Shown in pieces: positions 35,164 to 43,055 of a stretch of 64,000 nucleotides of DNA. Source of the stretch: Gemmatimonadota bacterium (lineage in GTDB: Bacteria > Gemmatimonadota > Gemmatimonadetes > Gemmatimonadales > Gemmatimonadaceae). The position numbers were made by a program, and so were the translations under genes. The notes beneath the pieces are model-generated. The model ran no database searches. It saw only the letters and a list, made by a program, of their open reading frames with translations, and was not told the origin of the DNA. Where the stretch lies: contig JAQBPX010000014.1 in the NCBI GenBank assembly GCA_028287305.1, positions 124,001 through 188,000 of the forward strand. The letters are read 5' to 3'. The first letter of the stretch is position 1, and every line of letters starts with the position of its first letter.

Positions 35164-37362
35164 ATGACCAGCAATTCGAAGAAGTACTATTTTCGCGTCG
35201 ATGCTCGCACAATTTTGCAGCTGGGGCGCCAGAGCATTAAGGATCACATCACCGCGCTAATTGAGCTGGTAAAGAACGCCTATGATGCCGATGCTGGTAG
35301 AGTCGAGATCGACCTGCAGTCGCGTAAGGGCGTTCTGCGTGTCACGGACGACGGTAGCGGCATGGATGAGGACACTTTTCACAAGACCTGGCTGCGGATT
35401 GGCTACTCAGCGAAACGACGCGCAACCAAAAGCCCTAGCGGCCGTCGACGTGTCGTAGGTGAGAAGGGCGTCGGCAGAATATCTGCCGACCGACTTGGCG
35501 GGGAGCTTGAGCTTCGAACTCTCGCTCGCGGAAAGACTCCCTTCTCCGCGGTGGTCTCATGGGATGCGTTTGACGTCGACGACCGGGACCTCGGACAAGT
35601 TCCTGTGCTACTTCGGCAGGGCGTGACGCCAGATCTGCCGAAAAAGGAAGAAGCAGTCTCCTCCGATCGACCTAGTGGCACAGAGCTTATCGTACGGAAC
35701 CTTCGCCAAGCATGGCACGCATCCGACATTGAGAATCTCGTTCAGGAACTCGAGACTCTTGTTTCGCCCTTTGATCAGGACGGGGACTTTGCTGTCTGGC
35801 TAAAGACAGACATTGCACAAGCATTCGAAGGGGAAATACAATCGAGTCTCCCTGAGCAGGCAGAGCTAGAGCTACGTGCTAAACTTTTTAGAAACGTCAT
35901 CACCTACGAGCTGATTGACCGAGCTCCAGGGAGAGCCAAGCCCCTTCGGCGTAGCGGTAAGTTGAAATGGGCTGACGTCGGCACGGGGCCAGATTCCGGT
36001 AGGCAGGGCACCAGAACGCGAAGCGCACGCACCGGCCCGGTAGAGCTTCGCCTATACTACTTTCCCCAGCGCTTCTTTCGCGAGCACGCCTCTGTGCTTA
36101 AAGCATCGGAATTGCGTGACCGCACGGTCGGCATTCGCATCTATCGAGACAAGGTGCGCGTCCGACCCTATGGCGACTCGCGGGACGCTGCCGGAGATTG
36201 GCTGTCTCTTGCTGCGCGAAAAGCAAGAGAGCCGGCGGGCGTGTCAAGAACCGCTTACCGCATTCCGCCTACCGAACTCGCGGGCGCAGTATTTATCGGT
36301 CGCGACAGAAACCGCAAGCTTTACGACAGCGCTGGTCGCGAAGGATTAGTTCATAACGAGGCCTTTGCCGACCTTCGCGCACTGGTTCTACGCTGCCTGC
36401 GAATCATGGAAGGACACAGACACAAGGTTCACACTGATCGTGCGCCCGTGCGTGATGTGATTCCAGCGCTTCAGGCAGTGGAGTCCTTCTCTACCCGGCT
36501 CGGTTCCATCGAGAAGGAGTGGCGAACCATTCAGGCGGAAGCAATCACAAATCCGCGCCGCGCGCTCGACCGAGCAGGGGAGATCATTCTCTCTTCAATC
36601 GACACGGTAAAATCGACGCGCGAATCCGTATCAGCATTGGTAGACCAAACGAGGCTGTTCCGGGGCTTGTCGAGCCTCGGCATCGCGGCATCCGTGTTCG
36701 GCCACGAGACGCAGGTGCTTATTTCACTCTGTCTTGGCAATCTCGCTGAAGCGGGTGACGAGCTTCGAAGCGCTCAACCCGATCTAAAGCTGGCGTGTGC
36801 CGCAATTGATGAGGCGCTTGTCAACGCCCGCAAAGTCTCCGCGTGGGGAGCGTTCGCCGTCGCAAGAGTTAAACCGGATAAGAGACGGCCGAAGCTGCTG
36901 CGAATCGACACGCTTGTCCAAAAGCTAGCCGAAGAACTTCGTCCAGCCTACACCGCAATCCGAACTCCTCTAGAGGTCAACGTAGAGCCTGTCGAGCTGA
37001 AGGCCCATGCGATGGATATTGAGGCAATCGCCCTAAACCTCTTGACCAACGCCTACTCCTTTTCTCAGGAAGGAAAACGCCGCGGTGTTCGCGTCACCGT
37101 CAAATATGATTCGCGAGACGGAAGGAAGGGGGCGGTGATTGTGGTAGCTGACTCAGGACCTGGCGTTGCTGCCGAGGCGCGCGAAGTAGTGTGGGAGCCC
37201 TTGTACACGACAAAACGGGACGCGGCTGGCAACGAGTCCGGCACGGGCCTCGGCTTGTCAATCATCGATTCCATCGTCCAAGATAGAAAAGGGAGCCGCT
37301 CGCTTGATTCCGACCCCGATCTCAAGGGTGCTCGCTTCACGATCTGGCTGCCGATTTCCTAA
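35164..37362 (+). CDS. Dual-GHKL-ATPase histidine kinase of a four-gene operon
   Basis: Predicted 732 aa. The N-terminal 200 residues are a MORC/Hsp90/MutL-like GHKL ATPase: ALIELVKNAYDAD (Glu34, Asn38), TDDGSGMD (62-68) and GEKGVGR (99-105). A middle region of about 300 residues is unassigned. An H-box-like ASVFGHETQ carries His514, and a second GHKL domain of histidine-kinase type follows: NLLTNAYSFS (Asn629), DSGPGV (663-668) and GTGLGLS (693-699). There is no signal peptide, membrane helix or other sensor domain, so it is cytosolic and the N-terminal ATPase may be the sensor. Its stop overlaps the next ATG by one base. Likely partner: the receiver protein that follows. Confidence 0.85.
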   Translation: MTSNSKKYYFRVDARTILQLGRQSIKDHITALIELVKNAYDADAGRVEIDLQSRKGVLRVTDDGSGMDEDTFHKTWLRIGYSAKRRATKSPSGRRRVVGEKGVGRISADRLGGELELRTLARGKTPFSAVVSWDAFDVDDRDLGQVPVLLRQGVTPDLPKKEEAVSSDRPSGTELIVRNLRQAWHASDIENLVQELETLVSPFDQDGDFAVWLKTDIAQAFEGEIQSSLPEQAELELRAKLFRNVITYELIDRAPGRAKPLRRSGKLKWADVGTGPDSGRQGTRTRSARTGPVELRLYYFPQRFFREHASVLKASELRDRTVGIRIYRDKVRVRPYGDSRDAAGDWLSLAARKAREPAGVSRTAYRIPPTELAGAVFIGRDRNRKLYDSAGREGLVHNEAFADLRALVLRCLRIMEGHRHKVHTDRAPVRDVIPALQAVESFSTRLGSIEKEWRTIQAEAITNPRRALDRAGEIILSSIDTVKSTRESVSALVDQTRLFRGLSSLGIAASVFGHETQVLISLCLGNLAEAGDELRSAQPDLKLACAAIDEALVNARKVSAWGAFAVARVKPDKRRPKLLRIDTLVQKLAEELRPAYTAIRTPLEVNVEPVELKAHAMDIEAIALNLLTNAYSFSQEGKRRGVRVTVKYDSRDGRKGAVIVVADSGPGVAAEAREVVWEPLYTTKRDAAGNESGTGLGLSIIDSIVQDRKGSRSLDSDPDLKGARFTIWLPIS

Positions 37363-38063
37363 TGAGCACACTCGCTGTGGTCGACGACCGCCCTGAGGTG
37401 CGGGATCTAGTGGGGAGGAGGCTTACACGTGCGCTCAAGGACGAGGGCGTTTTCGATCAGTGGGAGTTAGTACTCTCTCCACCGCTGGCGACCCTCTCTC
37501 TATATCCGGGATGGGTCGCGGAGCAGGAGGTGTCTGTCCTTTTGCTAGATCAGCGATTGAATGAGGCGGCAGATCTCGAGCCTCCTTATACCGGTCACGA
37601 TATTCTGAACCTGCTGAGACCGAGGGAGTTCGACCTCCCAATCTATTACGTCACCGAGATTCCCAACGATGCACTCCTGGAGGCCGATAGCCCTCGCGTG
37701 AGTGGGATTCTCTCTAGAAGCAAGCTCACAGCAACGCTGGAGGATACTCGCTTCTTCGTGCGTGAATTTATTCGAGAAGGACAGCGCTACGATGCGCGAG
37801 TCGCCCGTAAGCTGGCCCGGCTTTCGCAGATCGCATCGCTCATCGTTGCAGGAACTGCCAACGAGGAGGAGCTGAAGGAAGCGGCAGCCATTCGGGAGGA
37901 GTTTCAATTGCCGTTTGCCAGCTCAGACGCGCAAATCGACCGCGCACAGTCAGCGCGATTTGATCTGCTGAATGTGTTCGAAGAAGAAATCAGCTCCCTA
38001 GAATCACTCGCAACAGAGTTGCGTGGCTTGATCGCGGAGTCCGCGCCGGAGGAGGAGGAGTAG
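37362..38063 (+). CDS. Stand-alone receiver-domain protein
   Basis: Predicted 233 aa. Residues 1-125 are a receiver domain with all key positions intact: Asp8/Asp9 (VVDDRPEV), Asp63 as phospho-acceptor (LLLDQRLN), Thr98 (YYVTE) and Lys121 (SRSKL). The remaining 110 residues are helical and acidic, ending in four Glu. They contain no DNA-binding or enzymatic output domain. It may signal by protein contact, for instance with the HNH or methyltransferase proteins. It overlaps the kinase gene by 1 nt and is 2 nt before the HNH gene, so tight coupling is expected. Confidence 0.85.
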   Translation: MSTLAVVDDRPEVRDLVGRRLTRALKDEGVFDQWELVLSPPLATLSLYPGWVAEQEVSVLLLDQRLNEAADLEPPYTGHDILNLLRPREFDLPIYYVTEIPNDALLEADSPRVSGILSRSKLTATLEDTRFFVREFIREGQRYDARVARKLARLSQIASLIVAGTANEEELKEAAAIREEFQLPFASSDAQIDRAQSARFDLLNVFEEEISSLESLATELRGLIAESAPEEEE

Positions 38064-38065
38064 GG

Positions 38066-38692
38066 ATGCAATGGTTCCTCGTTCCGAAGGTTCCTCCCGA
38101 GCAAGTACGGGCTGGCTCATACAAGGATTGGAAGCCCGAGCTAGCCGTGGAAGGAAGGGAACAATGCGTGTACTGCGCGATTCCCGATCGAAGAATGGGT
38201 GGACTGTACGTATTTCACGTCGAGCATTTCGTTCCGAAGTCGAGGGACTCAAACCTTACGAACGAGTGGGGCAATCTCTTCTACTCTTGCCCTATCTGCA
38301 ATGTGTTTAAGGGCGCGGACTGGCCCGAGCCGGGCTCACCCATATCATATGTTGATCCGAGCAAGGTCGACTACAGCACCATTCTGTTAGTCCAACAGGA
38401 TGCGAGCGTGATCGGGCTAACCACGAATGCTCGGTACATGATCGAGCGCCTAAACCTTAATCGTGCACAGCTTCGCCTCGAACGACGCGACGCTTTCCTT
38501 TGGATACGGTACCATGAGGCAGCACGCGCCATCGACGCAATGAGACCGAAGCTCAGACTATTGCCGGCACAGGATCGTAGCAACATCGTCGACCGAGTCC
38601 TTGAGATATCCGGTCGAGTACGAGAGGCGTCCGAGCGCGTGCGTACTTCCAGTCTTTATGGCCCTGGCGATACGAGAAGGGCGGCGCGATGA
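38066..38692 (+). CDS. HNH endonuclease of the four-gene operon
   Basis: Predicted 208 aa. An HNH module with zinc knuckles occupies residues 34-82: CVYC (34/37), FHVEHFVPKS (His51, His54), the Asn of NEWGNLF (70) and SCPICNVFKG (75/78). This is the HVEHF/CN..KG subtype seen in restriction enzymes and Septu-like effectors. The C-terminal 110 residues are helical (TTNARYMIERLNLNRAQLRLERRDAFL). Placed between the receiver and the DNA methyltransferase genes, it is the likely DNA-cutting component. It starts 2 nt after the receiver stop. Confidence 0.9.
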   Translation: MQWFLVPKVPPEQVRAGSYKDWKPELAVEGREQCVYCAIPDRRMGGLYVFHVEHFVPKSRDSNLTNEWGNLFYSCPICNVFKGADWPEPGSPISYVDPSKVDYSTILLVQQDASVIGLTTNARYMIERLNLNRAQLRLERRDAFLWIRYHEAARAIDAMRPKLRLLPAQDRSNIVDRVLEISGRVREASERVRTSSLYGPGDTRRAAR

Positions 38693-38735
38693 TCTCGATC
38701 AGGTATTCTAATCCCGTCATGAGGCGTTCTCGTAG

Positions 38736-40007
38736 ATGAATTTTGGCACAGCTGCCATAGCGATGGAGCGCCTAGCGAGTAACGGGCTGCGCGGAAACCT
38801 CGGCTCCAGCTTTATCGACAGTAATGCCGCAGAACTCGCGTCACTATTCCGGCGAACAGTGTCCTTGTCGGAGAGGCGCGCCTCTGGTGCGTTCTTCACG
38901 GCTCCTGGTCTCGCCGCCCAAATGGCTCGAGGGGTTCCGAGTACCGCCACGGTGTGCGATCCGACCTGCGGAATTGGAGACCTGCTATTGTCTCATGTTC
39001 GACGCTTGCCCGTGGAGCGTTCGCTCGATGAGACACTAGACGAGTGGGGCGAACGAATCTCTGGGTTCGAATTGCACGGGCATCTACTGAGAGTCGCACG
39101 AGCAAGGATCGCATTGGCGGCGATCGCCCGGTTCGAACGTCTCCGCAAGAAGCCCGGCCGATCGACAAGACTCTTAAAGGAGCTTTTCCCATCCTTAATT
39201 GTGGGCGATGGACGTGATTCCGGCCCGGCCATTCGCAACGCGACTCATGTTTGGCTCAATCCGCCGTACAACAGAGTACAAGCTCCGCCTGAATGCACTT
39301 GGAGTTCCGGGCTGGTGTCGCAGGCAGCGTTATTTGTCGAATCCACTTTGCTGCACTCTCGAGCCGGCACTTCCCTAACAGCCATTCTCCCGGATGTGCT
39401 CCGATCTGGTTCGCGATATCAACGCTGGAGAATGCGGATCGAGGAACTCGCTAGGGTGCAATCCGTAGAGATTGCTGGGCTATTCGATCAGCACACTCAC
39501 GTCGACGTTTTCGTTCTTCGAGCAACTCGGCTTGCTGTTTTGAAGCGCGAGCCAGGGGCGGGCATGTGGACGGCCGTGGTTTCCAATGCGACCGTTGGCT
39601 CTCTCGTGCAGATATCCGTCGGGCCAGTTGTGCCCTATCGCGAGCCGAATCTCGGGCCATGGAGACCATATGTCGATGTGAAATCGTGCCCGCGGGACGG
39701 AGTTCTCTTGGACTCATTGGCCTCACGACGCTTCCGGGGGCGTGTCTTTGAGCCCCCGCTAGTTCTAATTCGTCGCACATCTAGTCCCCATGACAAGCAT
39801 CGCATCGTATCGACACTTGTAACCGACTCCAGGTCTCTTGCGGTGGAGAACCACTTGCTCGTACTCGAACCTTATGACGGAACGGTCGCCACCTGCATGG
39901 CGGTACTCGACGTACTTCGATCAGAACGGACGAATACATGGCTGAACGAGAGAATTCGCTGTCGGCATCTCACGGTGGAAGCTGTGAGGGATATTCCTCT
40001 TCGCTAG
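38736..40007 (+). CDS. N6-adenine DNA methyltransferase
   Basis: Predicted 423 aa. GAFFTAPGLAAQM (51-63, motif X-like), CDPTCGIGDLLL (motif I, 74-84), FELH (111-114, motif II) and WLNPPYNR (NPPY at 175-178, motif IV) define an amino-methyltransferase of the gamma/Eco57I-like group. Residues after about 270 are probably target-recognition sequence and end in NTWLNERIRCRHLTVEAVRDIPL, as in many type I/IIG modification subunits. No helicase or REase domain is fused. It is 43 nt after the HNH gene on the same strand and should protect host DNA. Confidence 0.9.
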   Translation: MNFGTAAIAMERLASNGLRGNLGSSFIDSNAAELASLFRRTVSLSERRASGAFFTAPGLAAQMARGVPSTATVCDPTCGIGDLLLSHVRRLPVERSLDETLDEWGERISGFELHGHLLRVARARIALAAIARFERLRKKPGRSTRLLKELFPSLIVGDGRDSGPAIRNATHVWLNPPYNRVQAPPECTWSSGLVSQAALFVESTLLHSRAGTSLTAILPDVLRSGSRYQRWRMRIEELARVQSVEIAGLFDQHTHVDVFVLRATRLAVLKREPGAGMWTAVVSNATVGSLVQISVGPVVPYREPNLGPWRPYVDVKSCPRDGVLLDSLASRRFRGRVFEPPLVLIRRTSSPHDKHRIVSTLVTDSRSLAVENHLLVLEPYDGTVATCMAVLDVLRSERTNTWLNERIRCRHLTVEAVRDIPLR

Positions 40008-40157: not shown

Positions 40158-40496
40158 ATGTCCCGCCTCCCCATCCTCAAAGGCACCCTCGACGTCCTCG
40201 TCCTCAAGTCCCTCACCTAGGGTCCCATGCACGGGTTCGAGATCACCACCTGGCTCGAGGAGCAGACTCGCGAGGGGCTCGACATCGAGGACGCGGGCCT
40301 CTACCAGGCGCTCCGCCGCCTCAAGGAGCGCGGCTTCCTCGAGGCTGAGCTCGGGCTCACCCAGAACAACCGCCGCGCGCGATACTACAAGCTCACCACC
40401 ACCGGCCGCGCGCATCTGCGCGCCGAGACCACGCGCTTCACGCGATACGCCGAGATGGTCCTCGCGGTGCTGGCCACGCCGGCCGCGCGCGCCTGA
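40158..40496 (+). pseudogene. PadR-family regulator pseudogene (internal stop)
   Basis: Nearly identical to the intact PadR gene at 42717. A TAG at 40218-40220 stands where the intact copy has TGG (Trp, in LTWGPMHGFE). The rest of the frame (EITTWLEEQTREGLDIED through LATPAARA) is preserved, which suggests recent inactivation. An ATG at 40227 could still give an 89-aa fragment lacking the first helix. Confidence 0.85.
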
Positions 40497-42716: not shown

Positions 42717-43055
42717 ATGCCTCCCCTGACGATCCTCAAGGGCACCCTCGACGTCCTCGTCCTCAAGACCCTCACCTGGGGTCCCATGCACGGGTTCGAG
42801 ATCACCACCTGGCTCGAGGAGCAGACCCGCGAGGGGCTCGACATCGAGGACGCGGCCCTCTACCAGGCACTCCGGCGCCTGGAGGAGCGCGGCTTCCTCG
42901 AGGCTGAGCTCGGGCTCACCGAGAACAACCGCCGCGCGCGGTACTACAAGCTCACCACCACCGGCCGCGCGCACCTGCGCGCCGAGACCACGCGCTTCAC
43001 CCGCTACGCCGAGATGGTCCTCGCGGTGCTGGCCACGCCGGCCGCCCGCGCCTGA
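42717..43055 (+). CDS. PadR-family transcriptional regulator (ADOP partner)
   Basis: Predicted 112 aa. Typical PadR winged helix: LTILKGTLDVLVLKTLTWGPMHGFEI, DIEDAALYQALRRLEERGFLEAELG, ARYYKLTTTGRAHL. The length is standard. The last base of its stop is the first base of the permease start (43055). PadR proteins so placed are thought to control the adjacent permease gene. It is nearly identical to the pseudogene at 40158, where a Trp codon has become a stop. Confidence 0.95.
   Translation: MPPLTILKGTLDVLVLKTLTWGPMHGFEITTWLEEQTREGLDIEDAALYQALRRLEERGFLEAELGLTENNRRARYYKLTTTGRAHLRAETTRFTRYAEMVLAVLATPAARA

Follow-up and report, generated by a model that had tools for sequence, protein, structure and literature searches.

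A recurrent four-gene operon with a MORC-like histidine kinase, a receiver, a PtuB-like nuclease and a DNA methyltransferase: a candidate restriction-modification-like defence system

A conserved four-gene unit

We analysed a stretch of 64,000 nucleotides (nt) from a Gemmatimonadota bacterium (contig JAQBPX010000014.1, positions 124,001 to 188,000; here called the window), in which an operon at 35164-40007 encodes a histidine kinase with a MORC-like N-terminal half, a receiver, a PtuB-like HNH nuclease and a DNA methyltransferase. The operon may be a defence system akin to restriction-modification in which a two-component relay carries the signal, a reading to which we give a little less than an even chance. 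We favour it because the gene order is fixed in 49 loci with a methyltransferase near 48 of them and mostly small gaps, because both ATP sites, His514 of the kinase and Asp63 of the receiver are conserved, because the N-terminal half of the kinase aligns to MORC3 and matches the restriction-enzyme model NF050001, because the class of methyltransferase is swapped with no swap of the receiver or nuclease and the divergence pattern agrees, and because the loci sit not just on chromosomes but also on plasmids and viral contigs. An initial annotation, made from the sequence of the window, had given the gene count, the coordinates and the spacing, and the open reading frames (ORFs) agree with it exactly: kinase and receiver overlap by 1 nt, 2 nt separate receiver and nuclease, and 43 nt separate nuclease and methyltransferase.

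Recurrence and distribution

At least 49 loci, the window's being counted, carry kinase, receiver and nuclease genes in the fixed order. A methyltransferase with an NPP(Y/F) motif lies near 48 of these, and the remaining locus (L147) stops at a contig end. The totals are lower bounds, as the scans were ranked and the scan of genome contigs with three kinases covered the best 80 of 228 relatives. Among 107 genome or plasmid regions (window included), 34 hold the three genes and the nearby methyltransferase, while the scan of viral contigs gave 56 loci, 15 with kinase, receiver and nuclease and 14 of those with a methyltransferase. The 48 loci whose kinase piece exceeds 450 amino acids (aa) fall into 45 clusters when grouped at 90% kinase identity. 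Chromosomes, plasmids and viral contigs are all represented, as are, to judge by record titles, at least six phyla beyond that of the window, including Verrucomicrobia, Planctomycetes (Kuenenia), Pseudomonadota, Bacteroidota, Bacillota and Deinococcota. Searching plasmids with the N-terminal part of the kinase brought up Deinococcus gobiensis and Salipiger profundus, which both carry all four genes, and Klebsiella variicola, where the kinase is in pieces; receiver searches added plasmid loci of Ensifer and Rhizobium. No relative was found in a single-protein scan of viral contigs, nor did the window's receiver match any plasmid or part of the Klebsiella locus match E. coli genomes by blastn.

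Within the 34 regions, gaps of at most 60 nt separate kinase and receiver in all 34, receiver and nuclease in 33, and the methyltransferase from its neighbour in 29. Its spacing is larger in L063 (75 nt), L073 (84 nt), L084 (673 nt) and L055 (678 nt), and in L030 it abuts the first kinase fragment; it lies downstream in 27 cases and upstream in 7. Two further loci stand outside the 34, namely L060, whose contig ends inside the receiver, and L083, which has an HNH match and a receiver unmatched by our profile. A chance cluster is rejected, as the same arrangement occurs in 48 other loci; 47 of these are full sets and a 48th ends at its contig end, so the outcome that the initial annotation had named as fatal to its proposal, namely the four genes occurring together in no other genome, is not what we see. 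The same annotation had named conserved four-gene loci in defence islands across phyla as support for it. Recurrence and spread over phyla are borne out, and the island context is suggestive only: at E 1e-10 (expect value), PADLOC matched neighbouring ORFs to 92 families near the loci vs 43 near ordinary kinases, these being family totals with no per-protein counts. We scanned 89 of the 189 neighbouring ORFs of the 34 loci; for the controls, which lie near ordinary kinases, the number was 81 of 225. These numbers follow the removal of one kinase fragment and nine control ORFs (from L100, L113 and L123, which are not ordinary-kinase loci) from random samples of 90 ORFs each.

MORC-like kinases form a wider group, of which the four-gene set is a single stable branch. 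In the phylum of the window, 18 of 298 sampled genomes (its own genome included) have a match to the N-terminal part of the kinase, and 19 regions from the other 17 genomes contain neither the operon's receiver nor its nuclease. Many of the kinases that lack the receiver-nuclease pair have a partner of ~360-430 aa, and some have a methyltransferase. Loci L034, L040, L041 and L043-L045, which we regard as sister systems, combine a methyltransferase, a MORC-like kinase and a ~377-409 aa partner without the operon's receiver or nuclease. On the viral contigs L154, L162, L176 and L187, a MORC-like kinase is followed by a receiver-type protein of 363-365 aa with an extra C-terminal part, and a PtuB-like nuclease is absent. 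The Spirochaetaceae variant at L083:4755-10399 has a 324-aa HNH protein, an ORF with a C5-methyltransferase-like motif, a kinase and a receiver that passes the Response_reg cut-off. This receiver is the only one of ten partner proteins from related loci to reach a Pfam cut-off, and no partner of the sister systems does.

The kinase

GHKL domains had been placed at both ends of the kinase, and Pfam finds them there, HATPase_c_3 at residues 30-135 and HATPase_c at 617-731; both are also present in 29 of 29 related kinases. The N-terminal part matches NF050001, a model of GHKL-type restriction enzymes (BbrUII/HgiDII), with E 7e-23, which is far below the cut-off of that model. A structure predicted from 29 relatives (mean predicted local distance difference test (pLDDT) 77, predicted template modelling score (pTM) 0.55) aligns over residues 17-425 with mouse MORC3 (Z 21.3, 293 residues, root-mean-square deviation 3.5) and with human MORC4 at Z 18.9. 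Because Hsp90-type chains score close behind (Z 19.0), MORC-like stands here for the GHKL plus S5 class, in which MORC3 ranks best. It may be noted that this match comes from a second look at the kinase model (VIA-align), not an independent search, and that the 50 rows listed by Foldseek for the same model are all kinase cores or proteins containing them. The C-terminal part of the model aligns with histidine-kinase cores.

Conservation was counted in 31 unbroken kinases, leaving out L030, L055 and L082, where the kinase is in pieces. His514 and the acidic residue after it (Glu/Asp515) are kept in 31 of 31, as is each of N625, N629, D663, G665, G667, G693, G695 and G697 of the C-terminal ATP site, and the N-terminal ATP-site residues are kept in 30 or 31. 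In the three loci left out (L030 being on a Klebsiella variicola plasmid) the kinase gene is split into two or three pieces, with receiver, nuclease and methyltransferase present. In L030 an annotated anti-phage gene, Ppl, lies ~4.8 kilobases (kb) upstream.

The receiver

The second protein of the window has a sub-threshold Response_reg match in Pfam (13.5 bits against a cut-off of 30.2), and its predicted structure (mean pLDDT 84.5) has the fold of a receiver, extended at the C-terminus by long helices. Across the 34 loci Asp63, Thr/Ser98 and the acidic pair are kept in all and the Lys in 33. The initial annotation had taken the phosphorylation residues to be intact, which holds for the acidic pair, Asp63 and Thr98 of the window and fails for the usual Lys, replaced by Arg119. 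It had also described a receiver without an output domain; no known output domain is indeed present, and ~100 C-terminal residues are predicted to be helical. The receivers of L089 and L100 (167 and 165 aa) lack most of this helical region, and their nucleases (303 and 296 aa) are ~100 residues longer.

The nuclease and the methyltransferase

The third protein matches HNH (PF01844) in Pfam. It is PtuB-like, as the PADLOC PtuB model matches the nuclease in 34 of 34 loci and solved PtuB chains match as well; PacI is also among the solved-structure matches. Residues C34, H54, N70, N79 and K82 are each kept in 34 of 34. The several HNH histidines expected by the initial annotation come down to a single conserved one, the site being H-N-N (H54 with N70 and N79). 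Two of the four Cys of a presumed zinc site, C37 and C78, are replaced as a pair in 11 of the 34 nucleases (e.g., L062, L065 and L068).

For the fourth protein, annotated earlier as a stand-alone DNA methyltransferase, we found NPPY at residues 175-178 and a match to the PADLOC type II methyltransferase model (MTase_II) at E 1e-10, with no Pfam match in the window's copy. The NPP motif is present in all 34 aligned methyltransferases, of which 29 match N6_Mtase and 28 Eco57I in Pfam, and a profile of the 34 matches solved chains including BseCI, TaqI and BrxX. The window's enzyme is thus probably of the N6-adenine type.

Exchange of the methyltransferase and divergence of the genes

The methyltransferases fall into four BLAST groups unrelated to one another (18, 14, 14 and 2 members), while kinase, receiver and nuclease remain related. 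Between L084 and L149, for instance, identity is 63% for the kinase, 58% for the receiver and 60% for the nuclease, and the methyltransferases have no similarity. When pairs of loci with similar kinase identity are compared, receiver and nuclease are about equally conserved whether the methyltransferases are related or not. With kinases 50-60% identical, unrelated (n=7) vs related (n=43) methyltransferases go with 42.9 vs 43.0% for the receiver and 52.9 vs 47.4% for the nuclease. Distance correlations over 43 loci (those other than L030, L055, L082, L140, L141 and L147) are 0.92 for kinase-receiver, 0.92 for kinase-nuclease, 0.86 for receiver-nuclease, and 0.57-0.64 for any of these with the methyltransferase. 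The nuclease-methyltransferase correlation disappears once the kinase is accounted for (-0.08). On dividing the kinase into its halves, the partial correlation of the methyltransferase is 0.27 with the MORC-like half (0/2000 permutations) and -0.01 with the kinase half (1505/2000), whereas that of the receiver is 0.54 with the kinase half (0/2000) and 0.14 with the MORC-like half (26/2000). Methyltransferase divergence thus appears to track the MORC-like half and receiver divergence the kinase half. This supports the favoured reading without proving it, because the pairs are non-independent, the methyltransferase distances between groups are saturated and the longest protein is the best measured. 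When the kinase was scanned for regions that diverge where the methyltransferase group differs, residues 256-295 (window numbering) stood out. We take this as a hint, since it compares 18 pairs of differing group with 60 others and nearly all of the 18 involve L062, L069 or L084.

Proposed mechanism and alternatives

In the reading we favour, the methyltransferase would mark host DNA, and the MORC-like half would engage DNA, or the methyltransferase on DNA, and sense invading or unmarked DNA. Sensing would drive autophosphorylation of His514, from which the phosphoryl group would pass to Asp63 of the receiver, and the receiver would then release, recruit or activate the HNH nuclease. The relay would in this way link the MORC-like half to a nuclease that has no sequence specificity of its own, specificity being supplied by the methyltransferase and the MORC-like half. 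The closely packed genes and the conservation of His and Asp are in keeping with gating of the nuclease by phosphotransfer. Phage defence, the sensed signal, the direction of signalling, the phosphotransfer itself, the action of the receiver on the nuclease and the target of the nuclease are what we infer from comparing the genes. Several observations weigh against such a relay. MORC-like kinases occur without the receiver-nuclease pair in 16 of 44 genome loci (L060 by its contig end), 39 of 54 viral loci and 16 of 16 regions from the window's phylum. The partial correlations of the nuclease with the two kinase halves are 0.39 and 0.31, and that of receiver and nuclease given the kinase is 0.11 (106/2000), so direct contact between receiver and nuclease is not supported and the nuclease might be held by the kinase itself. 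The sole Lys exception among the 34 receivers is the window's own Arg119, with Lys121 nearby, and the neighbourhood of the loci suggests defence islands at most.

The same genes could form an abortive or toxin-like system, in which the PtuB-like nuclease would attack the nucleic acid of the cell generally (possibly RNA) and the relay would fire on inhibition or loss of the methyltransferase, no specific DNA being restricted. In favour of this, PtuB of Septu and retrons is the nearest match to the nuclease, certain PtuB proteins take part in abortive infection, and the methyltransferase is nearly always there (48 of 49); yet the methyltransferases belong to families of the restriction-modification type, which points to DNA marking, and we regard this alternative as unlikely. 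It is improbable, in our estimate, that the operon is a classical type II pair, in which the HNH protein would be the sequence-specific restriction partner of the methyltransferase, and kinase and receiver would regulate only expression or activity. HNH restriction enzymes exist, PacI being one, and the genes adjoin, but nuclease identity is no lower beside an unrelated methyltransferase and the correlation of the two is lost once the kinase is accounted for. Improbable to much the same degree is a kinase that would act as a MORC-type DNA clamp without phosphotransfer, the receiver being a mere structural adaptor to the nuclease. The predicted MORC-like fold of the N-terminal half and Arg119 would suit it, and pseudo-receivers are said in PMC12632262 to be common; it is hard to hold because the phosphorylation residues (His514 with its acidic neighbour, Asp63, Thr/Ser98 and, in 33 of 34, Lys) are fully retained on both kinase and receiver.

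A broader and more tentative proposal is that the loci form a widespread class of phosphorelay-gated restriction. A bacterial MORC-like clamp would directly drive a histidine kinase, unmarked DNA would be turned into a phospho-signal that arms a non-specific nuclease, and self/non-self identity would come from an exchangeable methyltransferase that matches the MORC-like half. If this is true, discrimination of self from non-self DNA would be relayed by phosphotransfer rather than residing in the cutting enzyme itself, and two classic bacterial systems would be joined. This would account for one nuclease serving unrelated methyltransferases, and what a MORC-type ATPase senses on DNA would be directly readable from the phospho-histidine.

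Operon layout and surroundings

Table 1. Genes of the operon in the window and regions of the kinase
Feature	Position	Strand	Length	Basis
MORC-like ATPase/histidine kinase	35164-37362	+	732 aa	
MORC-like GHKL ATPase half	~residues 1-430 of kinase			Pfam, predicted model
Histidine kinase core, His514	~residues 500-732 of kinase			Pfam, predicted model, conservation
Receiver	37362-38063	+	233 aa	
PtuB-like HNH nuclease	38066-38692	+	208 aa	
NPPY DNA methyltransferase	38736-40007	+	423 aa	

The G+C fraction in 1-kb windows inside the operon is 0.55-0.59. It is 0.64-0.72 on the right side (40-47 kb) and 0.63-0.68 immediately to the left (32.5-35 kb); the left-side contrast is local because G+C drops back to 0.57-0.60 further left (28-33 kb). 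The gene upstream of the operon encodes GAF and HD domains by Pfam. About 150 nt downstream of the operon begins a near-identical copy (40158-40496), with an in-frame stop close to its start, of a 112-aa gene at 42717-43055 that we take to be PadR-like.

Comparison with known systems

Detocs, a phage-defence system in which a receiver is fused to an effector, shares the logic of kinase and receiver, whereas here there is one receiver gene, no recognised effector domain, and a separate nuclease and methyltransferase. A DNA methyltransferase is likewise common to type II restriction-modification. With Septu and retron Ec78 the unit shares the PtuB-like nuclease (34 of 34), but it has no PtuA-type ABC ATPase; identity with Septu is rejected, the ATPase being of the GHKL class. 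The initial annotation knew of no system with this exact set, and no description of the four genes or named system was found in the open-access literature that was searched, most subscription papers and preprints lying outside that search. What had been described, in 2021, is a pair of dual-GHKL kinase and receiver-like protein tied to restriction-modification (PMC8011034). A figure legend in PMC13092281 mentions HATPase and REC domains for a group of predicted systems, so an overlap with the four-gene set is possible.

MORC/paraMORC ATPases were placed in restriction-modification operons in 2008 (PMC2292703). As far as the accessible text goes, the likeness lies in an N-terminal GHKL plus S5-type ATPase half, a fold that the window's kinase is predicted to have, and in operons with methyltransferases and HNH nucleases; the families described there are without a kinase core or receiver, and no SFII helicase is among the window's four genes. 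The closest likeness is to the HEF_HK/Response_reg_2 pairs (PF19191/PF19192), predicted and tied to restriction-modification in PMC8011034. Simple identity with these is rejected, as PF19191 matches 0 of 29 related kinases (E 0.01) and neither the window (E 0.1) nor its genome (E 1), and PF19192 matches 0 of 29 receivers and neither the window nor its genome; in the controls 14 genomes gave matches, none of them over the cut-off, so these models had no true positive. The shared features are GHKL domains at both ends of the kinase, an adjacent receiver-like gene and a restriction-modification neighbourhood, and our kinases have the same series of HATPase_c_3, a His-bearing helix region and HATPase_c. 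C5 cytosine methyltransferases, often accompanied by Vsr, are the dominant partner in that paper, HNH_2 is the best represented endonuclease domain and N6/N4 methyltransferases are among the neighbours, whereas the window's type has a fixed set of a PtuB-like HNH nuclease and an NPP(Y/F) methyltransferase.

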